Positions 56,420 through 64,000 of a stretch of DNA of 64,000 nt are shown piece by piece. The stretch is from Ligilactobacillus faecis (lineage in GTDB: Bacteria > Bacillota > Bacilli > Lactobacillales > Lactobacillaceae). The stretch spans positions 1,407,501-1,471,500 of the forward strand of contig NZ_CP123639.1 in NCBI RefSeq assembly GCF_029889745.1. The letters run 5' to 3'. The translations under genes and the position numbers were made by a program. Each line of letters starts with the position of its first letter. The stretch's first letter is position 1. A model generated the notes under the pieces. The model worked only from the letters and a program-made list of their open reading frames with translations, was not told where the DNA came from and did not search any database.

Positions 56420-57985
56420 CAATGTCATTAAGTTAAGCCTACAGTACTAAAGATTAGATATTGAAAAAGAGATCAGAAACATATTTTGTAGTTATCTGAT
56501 CTCTTTTTATCACGACAAATAAGCTGATAGTTAATCAAATTTTTTTATCAGCACGTTCTTTTATGTTATTCTGTAGTTGAATCCTGATGCTTTTCTTCTG
56601 CTGGATGATCTTTTATAATGCCGACCATTCCTGATTGGAAGAATATTTTTAGAAATATAGGATTCTAACCGTTTTGGTGGGGATTTTCCTCTAATAAAAG
56701 ATCTACACAGTCTCACAGCGACTGTAAAATTAACTTTATATTGATATGATCGAGCCTTTTCTTGGAGTGATACATGATCTATGATCATTTGGGTGAAATT
56801 GTACACTATAAGTTTAGCGTAGATCTCTTGAAGGATCCCCACTATTTTTTTAGCGTGAAAGTTCAATAATCCCAAGGTATGTTTCAATGTCCTGAATGCT
56901 GTTTCTATCCCCCAACGTAAATGGTAAAGCTTTTTTAGTTTCCAAGCTGGATATGAACTTTGATTTAGATTAGTTACTACAGTCACATCCTTGTCTTCGG
57001 ATACAGAAAAACGTACTATTCTAAATTCAAGTGAATAAAATTCAGTTGGGTCAGCTTTCTTGGTTTTTTGTGATAAAAAATCGAAGGTCACATTGGCCGG
57101 TATAAATCTATAAGAATTACGTTCTCTAAATAATTCCTTAGTTTCTCTAGTTTGTTTACGTGTTAATTTTAGTGTGAAATGTTTATCGAATTGGCGTTCA
57201 TCTGGAAGTGCTATTCCACTGATCACGCCATTGTTGTTTCGTACTCTGATCAAGAAAGACCAACCTTTTTCTTGGATGTGCGCTAAGGTATTATAAGATT
57301 CATATCCTCTATCGCCAATAATGAGCGCCTTAGGGATTTTAGAACGAGCGATCATTTTATTCAAGGCATTGCGCTCATTATCCATACCTTTTTGGACGAT
57401 CACATCTGTATAAATTTGTTTGTCTAAGTCAAAGAGTGCGTTAAGGTGAAGTAAATTATAAGCTTTGCGACCATTTGGAGATGGAAAATAAGAGCTTTTA
57501 TCAGTTGGATCAGTTGGGATATGAATACTAGAGCCATCGATAGCTAGGATCCTGATTTGACTTTGAGTGTTTTGTGATAATCGATCGGAAAACAGATGGA
57601 AGAATTTTTTAAACGCCTCAGCTTTTACTTTATATCTTTGTTGTGTAAAAGCTGAAACAGTGAGTTCCGGTATACCTCCTGTTAGTTGTGATAATTCACT
57701 TAGAATAGTCCCGCCACCCATTGATAGAATATAAAGTAGCGTGTCTTTAAAAACAAGTTTTCTCTGACGTATAAAATCACGTTTGGGATCGACAACATAT
57801 TTTTCTTTTTCTTGGTCGATCGAGTCAAGGGTAGTTAAAAATAACTTTTTCAGTTGTGCTATATTCATAATGCTCACCTCCGTACATTAATAATCTCTAT
57901 TAACGTCATAGATGTCAAAAAAGAGAGCTTGTATCAAATTTCTAAATTGAAATTTGATACAAGCTCTCTTAACTTAATGACATTG
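56420..57985 (-). mobile_element. IS4-family insertion sequence, about 1566 bp, apparently complete
   Basis: Perfect terminal inverted repeats of at least 18 bp (CAATGTCATTAAGTTAAG at the left, its complement at the right), a 10 bp target duplication and one intact transposase gene. Inside the right end, a 22 bp perfect hairpin (57923-57970) lies upstream of the transposase; inside the left end, AAAAAGAGATCAGA/TCTGATCTCTTTTT is a terminator. Both shield the element from outside transcription. Confidence 0.9.
56561..57868 (-). CDS. IS4-family DDE transposase
   Basis: About 435 residues, full length and undisrupted. DDE residues in context: IRILAIDGSSIHIPTD (first Asp), ALIIGDRGYESYN (second Asp), and the YREK signature YHLRWGIETAFRTLKHTLG (Glu). 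GGAGG precedes the ATG at 57868 at good spacing; a GTG nine bases earlier is possible. The element is recent, judging by its perfect ends and intact gene. Confidence 0.92.
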   Translation of the reverse strand: MNIAQLKKLFLTTLDSIDQEKEKYVVDPKRDFIRQRKLVFKDTLLYILSMGGGTILSELSQLTGGIPELTVSAFTQQRYKVKAEAFKKFFHLFSDRLSQNTQSQIRILAIDGSSIHIPTDPTDKSSYFPSPNGRKAYNLLHLNALFDLDKQIYTDVIVQKGMDNERNALNKMIARSKIPKALIIGDRGYESYNTLAHIQEKGWSFLIRVRNNNGVISGIALPDERQFDKHFTLKLTRKQTRETKELFRERNSYRFIPANVTFDFLSQKTKKADPTEFYSLEFRIVRFSVSEDKDVTVVTNLNQSSYPAWKLKKLYHLRWGIETAFRTLKHTLGLLNFHAKKIVGILQEIYAKLIVYNFTQMIIDHVSLQEKARSYQYKVNFTVAVRLCRSFIRGKSPPKRLESYISKNILPIRNGRHYKRSSSRRKASGFNYRIT

Positions 57986-58637: not shown

Positions 58638-59198
58638 ATGGTATTAAAAAAAATAACAACTACCATAGTAGTAGAATTTATTACTCCATTAGGACAACAA
58701 ATATTAGAACCGCAGACGTTGCTTAAACCGATCGGTGAACGCTATCAAGTGAAGATTCCCACAGTGATCGGTTATGTTCTAGTTGGACATCAAGGTGACC
58801 TTAGTGGAGTCGCAGATACAAAAAAAATAGTGCGATTGATCTACAAAGAATTAGGAGAGCTCGTCATAAGAAAAGGTTTGGCTGGAAACTACACATTAGT
58901 AGAACCTTTTCAAAATTCATCTGATGCGTTGAAAATAAAAAAAATCAAATTGCCTAAATTAGAGGAAAAGGAGGCTTATTACTTTGTTGAAGAAAAAGCT
59001 GGAAAACAGGTACTTGGTGCTCGTGTGGCTGACACCAACAATTTCATTCCTAGTGATCCAACTAAAAAAGTCTATTTATTTTGCTTGACCCCAGCACAAT
59101 ATAAAAAGTTGAACGGAGATTGGGGAGTACCTGAAATTCAATTGGGTGAGGAAGTAATTATTAAGCCTATATTTAATGAAGACAGCAGGAGCATTTGA
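58638..59198 (+). CDS. MucBP-like domain protein without export signal
   Basis: 186 residues. Residues 8-80 (TTIVVEFITPLGQQILEPQTLLKPIGERYQVKIPTVIGYVLVGHQGDLSGV...VRLIYKELGELVI) follow the MucBP pattern, here with no signal peptide, lipobox, membrane helix or LPXTG. Residues 100-175 (KLPKLEEKEAYYFVEEKAGKQVLGARVADTNNFIPSDPTKKVYLFCLTPAQYKKLNGDW) form a second conserved module. The protein at 61302 has the same two modules in the same order, so they are paralogues. It should be cytosolic. Base composition is AT-rich compared with the core. Function unknown. Confidence 0.62.
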   Translation: MVLKKITTTIVVEFITPLGQQILEPQTLLKPIGERYQVKIPTVIGYVLVGHQGDLSGVADTKKIVRLIYKELGELVIRKGLAGNYTLVEPFQNSSDALKIKKIKLPKLEEKEAYYFVEEKAGKQVLGARVADTNNFIPSDPTKKVYLFCLTPAQYKKLNGDWGVPEIQLGEEVIIKPIFNEDSRSI

Positions 59199-59365
59199 TT
59201 TTTTTTTAATGTGAATTTTGTTAGAATATATTATGTGTAATTTGTTAATATCGAGAATATCTATGTAGAAAGGTACAAAATGTGGAGTGGGCATTGTTTA
59301 ACGAAGAGTTGTTATCAATGCAGGTACAATAAAAAGAGGGGGATTTTATAACTTCACATTTTATT

Positions 59366-60772
59366 ATGATGGCAATGAAAAAGATGAAGATTGTTATTGT
59401 AGGAGCTAACCATGCAGGTTTAGCTGCTGTGCGACAGCTAGTTCAAAATGGAAATGGTGATTTTGAGATCACAGTTATTGATAGAGAAAATTCACTGGGA
59501 TATATTAGTGGAGCAACACCTCTTCTAATAAGAGGTGCTGTTTCAACATATAAAGATTTTTTCTCAATTGATATTAAAGAATATCTTGATGGAATTGACC
59601 ATTTTTATGCACATTCTACGGTAACTAGAGTGGATTTCGACCAAAGAAGAGTCTTCGTAGAAAGTGAGAATAAAGAGCGAAAACATTCATTTGTAGTCGA
59701 TTACGATAAGTTAGTTTTGGCAACAGGTTCGTTTCAACAAAAGTTACAAATTAAAAATAGTGAGTTATCAGGGATATATACGATAAAGAATTTGCGAGAG
59801 GGGCTGTTAGTCAACCAAAAAATCGATAGTGACCGTATCAAAAATGTAGCGATCGTTGGTGGAGGCTCTATTGGAGTGGAGCTTTCAGAAGCAATTAGTA
59901 AACGGCGAAAGAAAGTTACTTTGTTTGAGATCGATAAACACTTACTTGGTAGGAATTTTAGCAAAGAATTTAGTAAAATTGCTGAAAGACAATTATTAGG
60001 GTATGGAGTAGAACTTGAGCTAGATAGTGAAATTATTGGATTTGAAGGACGTGCTGGTAAAGTAAGCAATGTGATCACCACGAATGGGAGTTTTCTTGCA
60101 GATATGGTGATAATAACAACAGGTTTTTTACCTAATACAAATTTAGGTGGTTTTCATCTGGATAAGTATACGAATGGAGCCTATATTGTGGATGATGAAC
60201 AAAGAACTTCTGATCCAGATGTCTATGCAGTTGGAGATTGTGCGACTGTGAGTGATAGTGTGTTAAGCGATCTGACAGTTGATTTCTCAGTAGCAAATGC
60301 ACTTCGGAGTGGCAAAATTGCTGCCAAAAGCATTATGGGTATAGCCAAAAGTATAGGTGAGATGGTCACAACTAGGGTGATTCGAATTTTTGGTCTAAAT
60401 TTTTTTGCAACAGGGATCACGGAGAAAATAGCTGATGCATATCGTATAGGATACGGCTATGTGGATGATGAAGTGTATAATTTACTTCCTGCGATCAATA
60501 GTGGGGGAGAGAAAGTAAAACTTCGAATTATTTATCGCAACGATGATCATAGGATCATTGGAGCGCAAATTTGTTCAAAAGGTGATTTTTCAGGAATAAT
60601 AACGTTTCTTTCTTTAGCTGTGCAAAAAAAGGTGACAATTGATGAACTTGAAGATTATCGTTTCTTTTTTTATCCGTACTTTAATACGCCAGACAATATT
60701 TTGTCAAATATAGCCCAAAAAGGGATCAAAGAACTTGGTGATGAGACTGCAGGAGATCGGAATAAGTACTAG
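59366..60772 (+). CDS. NADH-oxidase-like flavoprotein lacking the redox cysteine
   Basis: About 468 residues of the pyridine nucleotide-disulfide oxidoreductase class related to Nox/CoADR. FAD site KIVIVGANHAGLAAVRQL, NAD site VAIVGGGSIGVELSEAI, second FAD motif YAVGDCATVSDSV and C-terminal FFFYPYFNTPDNILSNIAQKG are intact. The segment that normally carries the peroxidatic Cys (FLSCGIAL in Nox) reads YISGATPL; Gly replaces Cys near residue 49. It cannot do the standard water-forming cycle. The start has no adjacent SD: GAGGGGG lies about 25 bases before the first ATG. It sits between the two MucBP paralogues. Confidence 0.8.
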   Translation: MMAMKKMKIVIVGANHAGLAAVRQLVQNGNGDFEITVIDRENSLGYISGATPLLIRGAVSTYKDFFSIDIKEYLDGIDHFYAHSTVTRVDFDQRRVFVESENKERKHSFVVDYDKLVLATGSFQQKLQIKNSELSGIYTIKNLREGLLVNQKIDSDRIKNVAIVGGGSIGVELSEAISKRRKKVTLFEIDKHLLGRNFSKEFSKIAERQLLGYGVELELDSEIIGFEGRAGKVSNVITTNGSFLADMVIITTGFLPNTNLGGFHLDKYTNGAYIVDDEQRTSDPDVYAVGDCATVSDSVLSDLTVDFSVANALRSGKIAAKSIMGIAKSIGEMVTTRVIRIFGLNFFATGITEKIADAYRIGYGYVDDEVYNLLPAINSGGEKVKLRIIYRNDDHRIIGAQICSKGDFSGIITFLSLAVQKKVTIDELEDYRFFFYPYFNTPDNILSNIAQKGIKELGDETAGDRNKY

Positions 60773-60855: not shown

Positions 60856-61301
60856 GCACTTGAGATTTTTGAGAGTATTTGGCATGTACTACTCAGTGTG
60901 GTTTGTTTAAAAAATAAATGTACAAAACGATATAATTTGAACAAAATTAAAGGTGCTTAATTTTTTGGCGGAAAAATTATATATAATTAATAATTTATAG
61001 TTTCTAGTAAATGAAGAAAAGAATGAATAGCAAAATTTTCCGTATTATAGCGAAAAAGCCTTAGAATTGCTAAAGATATAATAACGTTATTTTTTTTGAT
61101 AGTATCAATTTTTGAAATTGAATATTCAAAATTTATAGTAGATACGGTTTACACAATTTAAATATAGCTTTAATATAAACTATGATAAGATGTTGGAAAA
61201 ATTAAGATATTCCAATGTCTTAGAACAAAGACCGTACCATCTTAAAAAAGATAGTGTGGTTCTTTATGGAAGTTTAAATATTTTTGGAGGTGAGAAGAAT
61301 A
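60856..61301. promoter_or_regulatory. AT-rich promoter region of the accessory operon, with 5' hairpin
   Basis: TTTACA (61148), 17-base spacer, TAATAT (61171) is the best promoter; TATGAT at 61181 is a second option. A long imperfect hairpin (AAAGACCGTACCATCTT / AAGATAGTGTGGTTCTTT, 61227-61265) precedes GGAGGTGA of the first gene. The hairpin lacks a T tail, so it is a leader structure rather than a terminator. Otherwise the region is empty. Confidence 0.5.
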
Positions 61302-62114
61302 ATGTTGGACAATGAGACACAATCTTTAAATTATGTGGTAGTTAATTTCATCACACCTGATCGAAAAAAGATAACAGATTCTTTGAAAATTTTTAAAACT
61401 GTTGGGGAACCTTATCGAGTAAATACGCCAAGTCTAGATGGTTATATTCTTGACGGATATCGGGGAAATTTAGAAGGGGTAATGGGAGAAAAAGTCGAAC
61501 AAGTAGAATTAGTCTATGAACGCCTCGGTAAACTGACGATTCAATCAGGGCTTGATGAAACAAATATTGGAACGAAGCAATTTAAGATATCCAGACATGC
61601 TAACCGAGTTCAAGTAATAGAGCTACCTAAAATTCAAGGAAGTGAAGATTACTATTACCTTGAAGAAAATGATGGAGAAAAGCGTATTGGTAAGAGGGTC
61701 GTTGATCCAGATAATTTTCTGCCAGATGATCCTACGCAAGATGTGCATTTACTCAAGCTGACTTTGGATCAGATAGATGAACTGACAAAGCTTTGGAGCA
61801 AGGATAAAAAGGCTGCTGTTTCAGAAAAGACTACTACCGAGATCGAAGAAGTTGAAAATCCAAAAGAAGATATTGCATATTCTGCGATAGTTGAGGAAAG
61901 TGAGATTCCAGAGGAAGTTGAACAAGTGCAAGTAATAGGAGGGGACACAGATATGAGTTTAACAGAACCAACAGTGCTATTACTAAATGCGTTTAAACAG
62001 GTTATGACAGCTCTTGTTGAGTATGAGAAACAAGGAAATTTGACACGTTCACAAAGAACTCGTTTGATCAAGCATGCTAAGTCATTACTAACAGCTGTTG
62101 AACGTTTGAATTGA
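61302..62114 (+). CDS. MucBP-like domain protein without export signal, with acidic linker
   Basis: About 270 residues. Residues 5-80 follow MucBP (LNYVVVNFITPDRKKITDSLKIFKTVGEPYRVNTPSLDGYILDGYRGNLEGVMGEKVEQVELVYERLGKLTIQSG). The second module (LPKIQGSEDYYYLEENDGEKRIGKRVVDPDNFLPDDPTQDVHLLKLTLDQIDELTKLW) mirrors the 58638 protein. An acidic linker follows (about 170-215, SEKTTTEIEEVENPKEDIAY), then a C-terminal helical segment (PTVLLLNAFKQVMTALVEYEKQGNLTRSQRTRLIKHAKSLLTAVERLN). No signal peptide or LPXTG. It has GGAGGTGA at correct spacing and is first in the operon. Function unknown. Confidence 0.62.
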   Translation: MLDNETQSLNYVVVNFITPDRKKITDSLKIFKTVGEPYRVNTPSLDGYILDGYRGNLEGVMGEKVEQVELVYERLGKLTIQSGLDETNIGTKQFKISRHANRVQVIELPKIQGSEDYYYLEENDGEKRIGKRVVDPDNFLPDDPTQDVHLLKLTLDQIDELTKLWSKDKKAAVSEKTTTEIEEVENPKEDIAYSAIVEESEIPEEVEQVQVIGGDTDMSLTEPTVLLLNAFKQVMTALVEYEKQGNLTRSQRTRLIKHAKSLLTAVERLN

Positions 62115-62138
62115 TAAGTATTTATGGAGGAAAAGGTT

Positions 62139-62321
62139 ATGGAAGAGGCAAAATTAGAAGAATTATTGAATTTGACACCAGCAATTATCTTAGGCAAAAG
62201 CGTAGTTGATGGTGCTGAAAAGTTGGTCAATGCAGTTGAAAAAAATGATCAGGAACTAGTGACTCGAATAATCGCTAAAGAAAAGCAACTATTAGATGCT
62301 TTAGAGATCATTGAGCAGTAG
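62139..62321 (+). CDS. Small helical hypothetical protein (60 residues)
   Basis: MEEAKLEELLNLTPAIILGKSVVDGAEKLVNAVEKNDQELVTRIIAKEKQLLDALEIIEQ: almost wholly helical by residue pattern, probably a small bundle or adaptor. The ATG at 62139 has GGAGG at the right distance; the ATG at 62124 precedes that SD. Flanked by operon partners at 61302 and 62339. Not recognised. Confidence 0.6.
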   Translation: MEEAKLEELLNLTPAIILGKSVVDGAEKLVNAVEKNDQELVTRIIAKEKQLLDALEIIEQ

Positions 62322-62338
62322 TAGATGAGGTGAGATCA

Positions 62339-63193
62339 ATGCAAGAAGCAGAGGTATATGAAAAAGAAGCTGATAAGGTCGTTACTAAAACGGAGGAAAG
62401 AACGCAAGTTATTCCGTTAAAGAAGGTGCGATTTGAAAAAGCGCTTAGTGAATTTATGGTCAAACCACTTGATTCGAGCTTAGAACTAAAATTCGTAAGT
62501 GCACTCTATACAATGCTATTTTATGTACCCGTCCAAGTTGGCGAACAAGTAATTTCTGCCAAAAATCGTAAACCTGGGCTTAAATTAGACATTGCAACTA
62601 TGACATATTTAGCGGATGGAAGTGAATATGTACCTGTATTTAGTAGCCCAGAGCGGATGGAGAGTTTCTTGCGTGGTATGGGAAAAAATACAGAGTTACG
62701 TCCTATGGTTTTATCAGCTCAAGAGTTAATGTTTCAAGCGCGGAGAGTCAATGTGGCAGGAATTTTAGTCAATCCGGGAGAACATAATTTTCCTCTCACA
62801 AATGAATATTGGAGCTATGTGAAACAGATTCGTCCGATCGATCTAGGAGATGGACGAAGTTTTAAACTAAAAATCATGCCACGTGATCCTGCAGCAAGGA
62901 TCGAAAACAAACTGAAGAACGTACTAAAAAGAATGCGTAGTGTAAAGCGAGCATGGCTCTTGGGGGTCAAACTGCCGGAACACGAAGATTACGAATATGT
63001 GGTGATCGTTGATTATACAGGAGATAAGAAAAAATTTGAAGAGAGTGTGGCACGTAAGTTGGCAATAGGTATTCGTAGTCAGTTACCTTATCGTTCAGAT
63101 GTTTTGATCGGGACGACTAATGATTTAGTTGGACGTTCGGCCGATAAAAATTTCACGCCTTTTTATGAACGGCGTATTGGCTTATTTGGATGA
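62339..63193 (+). CDS. SseB-domain protein (N- and C-terminal SseB modules)
   Basis: About 284 residues. The N-terminal part carries an SseB-like module (SALYTMLFYVPVQVGEQV...YVPVFSSPERMESFLRGMGKNTELRPMVLSAQELMFQARRVNVAGILVNPGEHNFPLTNEYW, about 40-160). The C-terminal part (MRSVKRAWLLGVKLPEHEDYEYVVIVDYTGDKKKFEESVARKLAIGIRSQLPYRSDVLIGTTND) matches the SseB_C type. SseB proteins (enhanced serine sensitivity) have poorly known roles and sometimes occur near secretion genes. A cytosolic protein with no export signal. ATG at 62339 fits AGGTGAG. Confidence 0.68.
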   Translation: MQEAEVYEKEADKVVTKTEERTQVIPLKKVRFEKALSEFMVKPLDSSLELKFVSALYTMLFYVPVQVGEQVISAKNRKPGLKLDIATMTYLADGSEYVPVFSSPERMESFLRGMGKNTELRPMVLSAQELMFQARRVNVAGILVNPGEHNFPLTNEYWSYVKQIRPIDLGDGRSFKLKIMPRDPAARIENKLKNVLKRMRSVKRAWLLGVKLPEHEDYEYVVIVDYTGDKKKFEESVARKLAIGIRSQLPYRSDVLIGTTNDLVGRSADKNFTPFYERRIGLFG

Positions 63194-63205
63194 GAGGTGA
63201 CTGAA

Positions 63206-63403
63206 ATGTATCGAATAGTAGTTGATGATCATTTGAAGAAAAAGGAGATTCGAAGAGGTAAAGGAGAGTTACCACTAGCAATCGAAGCAAGTAAACAAAA
63301 AGAGGAGTCAACATTTGCCAGTGCTATCGAAGTGGGTGAGTTCGAAGGCAAGATATCGCTAGGAACGCTCCCACTTTTTTTCGAACATAAGGGGGAGACA
63401 TAG
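63206..63403 (+). CDS. Small hypothetical protein (65 residues) directly before the adhesin
   Basis: MYRIVVDDHLKKKEIRRGKGELPLAIEASKQKEESTFASAIEVGEFEGKISLGTLPLFFEHKGET: a basic first half and acidic second half, no membrane segment. ATG at 63206 follows GAGGTGA. Its stop TAG touches the ATG of the adhesin (63401-63404), so translation is probably coupled. Not recognised. Confidence 0.55.
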   Translation: MYRIVVDDHLKKKEIRRGKGELPLAIEASKQKEESTFASAIEVGEFEGKISLGTLPLFFEHKGET

Positions 63404-64000
63404 ATGATCAGATATAACGCTAATTCCCGGTTATTTAAATATACGACCGATGAGAAAAAACGTTATAAACTTTATAAAAGAAAGAAAATGTGGGTCGTAG
63501 CTGGGATGTCGATTTTTAGTACTGCCTCACTGGTACAGCAAGTTTCTGCTGATGAAACGTCAGCGACAAATACACCCGTACAAAATGAGACAAAAGAAGC
63601 TGATAAGTTAGACAAGACTACAGATGTCAGTGAAGTAGAGGAAAGTGTTTCGTTAAGTCAAGAAGTTGATCTTTTAGACGATAAAAGAGAACAGGCTAGT
63701 GAAGTAAGTGGGCAAGTCGCTATTGATGAAACTCAAACGACATCAGGGCAGACGCAAGGCACTGAAGAAAGCGTAGATGTGAGTAAAGTAGGACAATCTC
63801 AAGAAGAGGCTACGAATCAAGAAATTACTGAAACAGAGACTGCAGTATCCGATGAGCAAAGTGTCCCAAAAGATCAAGGTGAGAGCGTTCAAGTTCAGGC
63901 AGATACTGTTGCAAAAAAAGTTAGTGAGCCTACTGAAGAGCCCAAAGCCAAAAAAGATGAGGTAGCAGAGCAAAGCTCAGAATCTCGATCTTCTGATAAT
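63404..64000 (+). CDS. Large surface adhesin with KxYKxGKxW-type signal (5' part, truncated by window end)
   Basis: 199 codons with no stop before the window ends. N-terminus MIRYNANSRLFKYTTDEKKRYKLYKRKKMWVVAGMSIFSTASLVQQVSADE: KLYKRKKMW fits KxYKxGKxW with Gly replaced by Lys, followed by a hydrophobic stretch and a cleavage site near QQVSA-DE. The following 150 residues are Glu, Ser, Thr, Gln-rich and low complexity, as expected in serine-rich repeat or other accessory-Sec adhesins. An LPXTG anchor and the repeat region would lie outside the window. SD GGGGGAG precedes the ATG. Confidence 0.82.
   Translation, partial: MIRYNANSRLFKYTTDEKKRYKLYKRKKMWVVAGMSIFSTASLVQQVSADETSATNTPVQNETKEADKLDKTTDVSEVEESVSLSQEVDLLDDKREQASEVSGQVAIDETQTTSGQTQGTEESVDVSKVGQSQEEATNQEITETETAVSDEQSVPKDQGESVQVQADTVAKKVSEPTEEPKAKKDEVAEQSSESRSSDN

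Follow-up and report, generated by a model that had tools for sequence, protein, structure and literature searches.

The window analysed here is a stretch of 64,000 nucleotides from the 2.38 Mb genome of Ligilactobacillus faecis (contig NZ_CP123639.1; G000:C1:1407501-1471500), and its right end, positions 61302..64000, holds a cassette of four genes on the + strand followed by the gene of an adhesin with a KxYKxGKxW signal. The first gene (61302..62114) encodes a MucBP-like protein of 270 residues, the second (p60, 62139..62321) an acidic protein of 60 residues, the third (62339..63193) an SseB-like protein of 284 residues with two domains, and the fourth (p65, 63206..63403) a protein of 65 residues. 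The adhesin gene begins at 63404, directly abutting the stop codon of p65; its part within the window (63404..64000, + strand) encodes an N-terminus with a KxYKxGKxW signal of the RYNxNSRLF subclass, and the frame continues beyond the window to an LPQTG motif. The successive gaps are 24, 17, 12 and 0 nucleotides. The initial annotation of this DNA described five genes leading into the adhesin; its coordinates, strand and gaps hold, while the partners number four, and five only if the adhesin itself is counted. Gene starts were chosen, as a matter of judgement, by the spacing of Shine-Dalgarno sequences, the alternatives being an upstream ATG at 62124 for p60 (65 residues), a GTG at 62330 for the SseB-like gene (287 residues) and a GTG at 63197 for p65 (68 residues). 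Substitution rates, distance correlations, the SseB tree and the PADLOC and PHROGs searches reported below used the frame of the third gene from 62342, without its first residue.

The product of gene 1 contains a MucBP domain (PF06458, 32.9 bits against a curated cut-off of 23), and the SseB-like protein contains the SseB (PF07179, 43.5 bits, cut-off 21) and SseB_C (PF14581, 33.3 bits, cut-off 22.5) domains. The signal of the adhesin matches KxYKxGKxW_sig (PF19258) with 45.3 bits at a cut-off of 23.6. Both SseB domains were over cut-off in all four cassette proteins scanned (from the window, L027, L073 and L075), and none of the three gene 1 relatives scanned from other genera reached the MucBP cut-off. 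For p60 and p65 nothing above cut-off was found in Pfam or NCBIfam; p65 evolves fast, with a G and a P conserved near its end. The SseB-like protein is basic, with an isoelectric point (pI) of 9.4, and the products of genes 1 and 2 are acidic (pI 4.8 and 4.4, respectively).

The full frame of the adhesin comprises 5025 residues and ends with LPQTG, a hydrophobic stretch and a basic end, so that both the signal and the C-terminal sortase motif of KxYKxGKxW/LPXTG surface adhesins are present. Its repeats are of the Muc_B2 and MucBP_2 types. Serine accounts for 6.6% of the residues overall and for at most 12% in any 300 residues, and long serine-rich repeats are absent; the protein is an adhesin of the mucus-binding type and not a serine-rich one. 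A second KxYKxGKxW/LPQTG adhesin of 3252 residues with MucBP repeats is encoded 72 bp past the first; this is what lies directly to the right of the first adhesin, on the side where the initial annotation had looked to genes of the accessory Sec system, and annotation extended no further in that direction. The adhesin pair has a second copy in the genome, consisting of a protein of 5035 residues and a KxYKxGKxW partner of 2072 residues (L086:13751 to L095:3175), with no cassette.

A search with the SseB-like profile against 397 genomes of the Lactobacillaceae (E 1e-5) gave matches in 22 of them, and a full-length cassette-type SseB was found in 13 (G000, G254, G024, G068, G097, G180, G199, G221, G264, G303, G316, G326 and G336). 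These carriers span six genera (g1, g12, g14, g21, g24 and g33), and the surroundings of all 13 were read. Locus L017 of Ligilactobacillus murinus DSM 20452 and G254:C63 carry the same genes and were counted once, as G254. The order muc–p60–sseB–p65–KxYKxGKxW adhesin is kept at all 13 loci as far as the contigs allow. Genes sseB and p65 are present at every one; gene 1 has relatives at 12, the thirteenth (L026 of G024) being cut by a contig end; and p60 was detected by profile, at the equivalent place, as an open frame at 12 and recognised by eye at the remaining one (L077 of G303), where a TAG lies inside it. The KxYKxGKxW gene is located downstream on the same strand in each case (13/13), its distance from p65 being at most 260 bp at 12 loci and 4.8 kb in G303. 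Although the later profiles of p60 and p65 include many of the rows that they found, the first profiles, built from fewer rows, detect both proteins in loci outside their training set. Because their relatives recur at the same place across loci, the two small open reading frames look like genuine genes.

Three of these loci deviate in detail. In G024 (L026:129-909) there are two copies of p60 with a gene for a MarR-type regulator between them. In G303 (L077:7145-14037), besides the stop codon in p60, a second, divergent sseB is found 1.4 kb past p65, and a helix-turn-helix (HTH) gene precedes the adhesin. In G326 (L073:1-7051) the frame of the cassette-linked adhesin is broken shortly past the signal with the cassette frames open, and two more signals of the same class are present on other contigs.

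The co-occurrence of the small partners with a KxYKxGKxW adhesin, which the initial annotation had proposed as a check, is therefore tight, at 13 of 13 loci in six genera, and small genes without an adhesin were not seen, these having been looked for only beside sseB. The probability per genome that a gene falls by chance within 5 kb upstream of a KxYKxGKxW gene, in the same orientation, amounts to 0.4-1.5%, and the product over one genome per genus gives a joint chance of about 1e-12. The adjacency persists at considerable divergence: the SseB-like protein of the window is 80% identical to that of L. murinus DSM 20452 and 30-37% identical to those of carriers outside its own genus. Pairwise distances correlate among all pairs of muc, sseB, p60, p65 and the first 60 residues of the adhesin (rho 0.64-0.88; 12 of the 13 loci, 11 for p60), with no more than 7 of 1000 permutations reaching such values, shared host ancestry not having been removed. 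Rough ratios of non-synonymous to synonymous substitution rates (dN/dS) between the window and L. murinus, for which dS is near saturation, were 0.14 for p60, 0.04 for sseB and 0.07 for p65; within g14 the value for p65 was 0.22, and that for muc was not computable. In a tree of the SseB rows, which has long branches, those of the cassette are separated from the rest by a branch of only 64/92 support.

The remaining nine of the 22 matching genomes contain short or divergent SseB relatives only, and none of the seven such contexts read (L029 and L080-L085; those of G049 and G232 were not read) was a cassette. A short SseB copy is additionally present in L. faecis itself (L030) and in G254 (L079). 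Among 395 genomes of the order, no cassette-type SseB was found besides that of L. faecis, the only one of the 13 carriers to appear in the answer of that search, which otherwise returned SseB relatives at 26-61 bits in nine genomes and the short copy of L. faecis. A search of plasmids using the SseB-like protein gave no match.

The adhesins linked to the cassette form a loosely defined class. Those of g1, g14, g21 and g24 have in common a long head that aligns over about 700 to 1400 residues in one or two stretches, and these and the g12 adhesin share the signal subclass RYxxNSRLxxD. Their repeats differ, being of the Muc_B2 type in the window and L. murinus and, in both g14 adhesins that were scanned, MBG together with MucBP. 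A model of the NSRL signal subclass exceeds 90 bits in 11 of the 13 carriers, a result that is circular for ten of the 11, whose signals built the model. A model built from g14 only was applied to 79 hand-picked genomes, namely the seven carriers outside g14, one training genome and 71 non-carriers of the same genera. It recovered five of the seven carriers and also matched 14 of the 71 non-carriers; among the latter, G295 outscored three of the five carriers so recovered, and G179 reached 53.3 bits against 53.4 for L. faecis. Three further large adhesins of L. faecis have this signal subclass and one more has the head, none of them next to a cassette.

The product of gene 1 consists of the MucBP-type domain, a further stretch, an acidic variable linker and a helical tail. 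This tail resembles the p60 family (hhalign probability 96.9%, E 1.6e-10), in agreement with comparisons of single profiles. The protein has the domain of a MucBP surface protein, and neither an anchor motif nor a signal-like stretch, as would be expected of an exported, anchored protein, was found in its sequence. It differs from the MucBP repeats of lactobacilli in having a single domain and its own helical tail and in being closer to its counterparts at other loci, which it matches with 58-235 bits. Twelve stretches of one adhesin of the same genome were matched with at most 4.3 bits each and 34.6 bits in total, and there was no match to the other L. faecis adhesins tested; the far stronger match to the counterparts than to adhesin repeats argues against the possibility that gene 1 is a broken-off adhesin repeat. 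Among solved structures, the gene 1 profile matched chain 2kvz (deposited as IspE; E 1.4e-5) over the MucBP part, and the SseB-like profile matched nothing at E 10.

The location of the proteins was judged by hydropathy. In a 15-residue measure over the first 60 residues, the products of genes 1, 3 and 4, at six or seven loci each, gave values of -0.29 to 1.05, below those of all 13 KxYKxGKxW signals (1.35-1.97); these three proteins are therefore likely to be cytosolic. No clear membrane segment was found in p60 or p65 by 19-residue hydropathy. The opinion of the initial annotation that every partner looks cytosolic thus stands as likely for genes 1, 3 and 4, and for p60, whose values are not separated from those of the signals, a cytosolic location is assumed.

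We propose, with a probability of about 0.5, that the four genes constitute a conserved operon module whose dedicated role is to help produce and export the giant KxYKxGKxW adhesin encoded downstream, a biogenesis module for that protein. This reading is supported by the gene order, the parallel divergence of the components, the low dN/dS values and the lack of signal-like stretches in the products of genes 1, 3 and 4, and further by a substrate class loosely defined by signal and head and by the absence of SecA2 from most carriers. In the cytosol, the cassette proteins would engage the adhesin while it is nascent or not yet exported, maintain its very long chain in an unfolded, export-competent state, and pass it to the canonical SecA/SecYEG. 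The segment shared by the tail of gene 1 and p60 suggests that the MucBP-like protein and p60 may assemble through these like helical segments, and the MucBP-type domain may act as an adhesin-like bait or contact, while the basic SseB-like protein, together with p65, would contact the signal or the head of the preprotein. As L. faecis combines a single cassette with three further adhesins of this signal class, the cassette may also serve these in trans. A more specific form of the proposal, possible but more tentative, is a SecA2-independent cytosolic chaperone and targeting system in which the MucBP-like protein and p60 would form a scaffold, the SseB-like protein a receptor and p65 an adaptor, recognising the KxYKxGKxW signal subclass and the head and routing adhesins of 2000-5000 residues through canonical Sec.

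Several observations weigh against a dedicated biogenesis module. The same head class occurs in G090 and G295 without the cassette, which is therefore not strictly required. The cassette is also missing from 316 of the 329 genomes with KxYKxGKxW genes. The class itself has exceptions: the g12 adhesin (L077) matches the head over only about 200 residues, which are also found in second adhesins of g14, and was not counted, and the g33 adhesins (L027 and L028), composed of 34% alanine and 18% serine, have a different signal and lack the shared head. As to location, the hydropathy of p60 was like that of the KxYKxGKxW signals at two of the seven loci (the window, 1.57; L. murinus, 1.35), and by the 19-residue measure the N-terminus of the adhesin and the SseB-like protein were equal, both at 1.26. 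AlphaFold models of single chains from two-sequence alignments, with mean predicted local distance difference test (pLDDT) scores of 39.8 and 42.5, were too poor to help; scores of about 70 were confined to the helices in the tail of gene 1. We infer the function of all the parts, and their cytosolic location, from sequence. Finally, DNA-binding regulators are found among the genes at two of the 13 loci, which fits regulation.

Such regulation, in which cytosolic proteins would sense a backlog of the adhesin or the state of the cell and tune the transcription or translation of the downstream gene, is the main rival and, in our opinion, an unlikely one. It is consistent with the common strand, the tight spacing and the abutment of p65 and the adhesin gene, as well as with the MarR-type gene inside the cassette of G024 and the HTH gene that separates cassette and adhesin in G303; however, the four proteins of the window match no family of DNA- or RNA-binding proteins in Pfam or NCBIfam, and HTH genes were seen at two of the 13 loci. 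It is less likely still that the genes are passengers, with an unrelated cytosolic function in metabolism, stress or defence, sharing an operon with a mobile adhesin island. The name of SseB, which in NCBIfam refers to serine sensitivity, the occurrence of shorter or divergent relatives in unrelated contexts (L081-L085), the patchy distribution (13/397 genomes) and a transposase gene 3.4 kb upstream would all accord with this, but the adjacency to the adhesin has persisted across six genera despite the low identity of the SseB-like proteins, none of the 13 copies is without a KxYKxGKxW adhesin, and PADLOC gave no match for the four proteins. Modification of the adhesin in the cytosol, by glycosylation, acetylation or otherwise, appears improbable. 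Partner enzymes of this kind do exist in L. faecis, where a pair of glycosyltransferase genes lies just upstream of another giant KxYKxGKxW adhesin gene (L088:3651-6712); these proteins, whose best NCBIfam matches are SdgA/SdgB, below the cut-offs, are a different partner set for the same type of signal. In contrast, no catalytic domain was found in any of the four cassette proteins in Pfam or NCBIfam, and the suggestion of a glycosylation factor made in the initial annotation is not upheld.

That annotation had also placed the locus in the frame of SecA2/SecY2 and a serine-rich adhesin, reading the KxYKxGKxW signal as the mark of a SecA2 substrate. The signal is present in 329 of the 397 genomes of the family, and therefore the motif alone is no marker of such substrates. 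The L. faecis genome encodes one full-length SecA, which scored below the SecA2 cut-off, and only a weak Asp2 match below cut-off (E 0.006); the genome-wide searches did not include SecY2, Asp1 and Asp3. Of the 13 carriers, 11 have one full-length SecA each and no SecA2 over cut-off, and Asp2 was not over cut-off in five of the six tested; as 12 of the 13 carrier assemblies are drafts or consist of several contigs, a gene missing from any one of them may reflect an assembly gap. GspB-type adhesins have signals of the KxYKxGKxW type, and the cassette resembles Asp1-3 of the Streptococcus gordonii GspB system in that it would, as they do, supply intracellular factors for the export of one large adhesin. 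In that system the preprotein binds to Asp2 and Asp3, and its association with SecA2 appears to be strengthened by Asp1-3 (PMC5578698). Likewise, two small proteins are encoded in the adhesin locus as are Asp4 and Asp5, which were purified in complex with the channel SecY2 (PMC5076819). In contrast, p60 and p65 have no clear membrane segment and no match to Asp4/Asp5, and the cassette differs from Asp1-3 in sequence, in the lack of SecA2 in most carriers and in the composition of the window substrate. The initial annotation was right that the partners match no Asp1-3, SecA2, SecY2 or glycosyltransferase: the Pfam and NCBIfam scans found no Asp protein, SecA2, SecY2 or glycosyltransferase among the cassette products. 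A reading of the cassette as a variant component of accessory Sec can draw on G024 and G254, which do hold SecA2 over cut-off, G024 together with Asp2; against the 11 carriers without SecA2, the single Asp2 among six and an adhesin that is not serine-rich, this membership is mostly refuted and was set aside. The module that we favour would be analogous to Asp1-3 in logic, and unrelated to it in sequence.

The surroundings of the cassette in L. faecis contain further features. A promoter-like site, TTGAAA-16-TATAGT, is found upstream (61112..61139, + strand); it is a consensus match only and weak, there being 15 such sites in the region against a mean of 9.3 in shuffles. Immediately upstream, at 58638-60772, lie a head-only paralog of gene 1 (58638..59198, + strand; 186 residues; PF06458, 26.7 bits; 39% identity over residues 11-166) and, after it, an NADH-oxidase-like gene. 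None of the other cassette loci read showed this pair, L017 beginning too near the cassette for a judgement. The transposase gene mentioned above (PF01609) occupies 56561-57877. A phage or defence origin was considered and rejected: PADLOC yielded no cassette match and one weak match of 14.5 bits for the neighbouring oxidoreductase, and PHROGs gave only weak ones, of 22.6 bits for the SseB-like protein, over a stretch of 20 residues, and of 14 bits for gene 1.

A second adhesin-linked SseB is encoded elsewhere in the genome (L030:147-9859), where a MucBP-repeat LPXTG gene, an NADH-oxidase-like gene, a short SseB-like gene and a sortase gene follow one another in this order. Short SseB proteins of this type have 231-236 residues, and in the one from L030, in which the domains were tested, both fall below the Pfam cut-offs. 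Inspection by eye showed the same gene order in three more genomes of this genus (L079, L080 and L029).

The cassette SseB, with both domains in order, is a member of the SseB family (PF07179 and PF14581), which includes the 'enhanced serine sensitivity' protein of Escherichia coli; it differs from the latter in scoring 27.7 bits with the NCBIfam model, whose cut-off is 295, and from the family in lying, at the 13 loci read, in an adhesin operon. Judged from titles, the literature offered no tie of SseB to adhesins, which is not proof of absence in print, and nothing on a dedicated chaperone for mucus-binding proteins. The cassette is grouped here with adhesin-linked accessory gene sets, with an appreciable chance of representing a new kind. 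We know of no dedicated factor that explains the export of adhesins of several thousand residues in Gram-positive bacteria without SecA2. The conservation of the cassette in front of the giant adhesin gene suggests a dedicated way to make or export the adhesin without the known accessory secretion machinery. A four-gene set travelling with one adhesin class would offer a genetic handle on the export of giant adhesins in lactobacilli, and an adhesin-linked role for proteins with SseB domains becomes testable.

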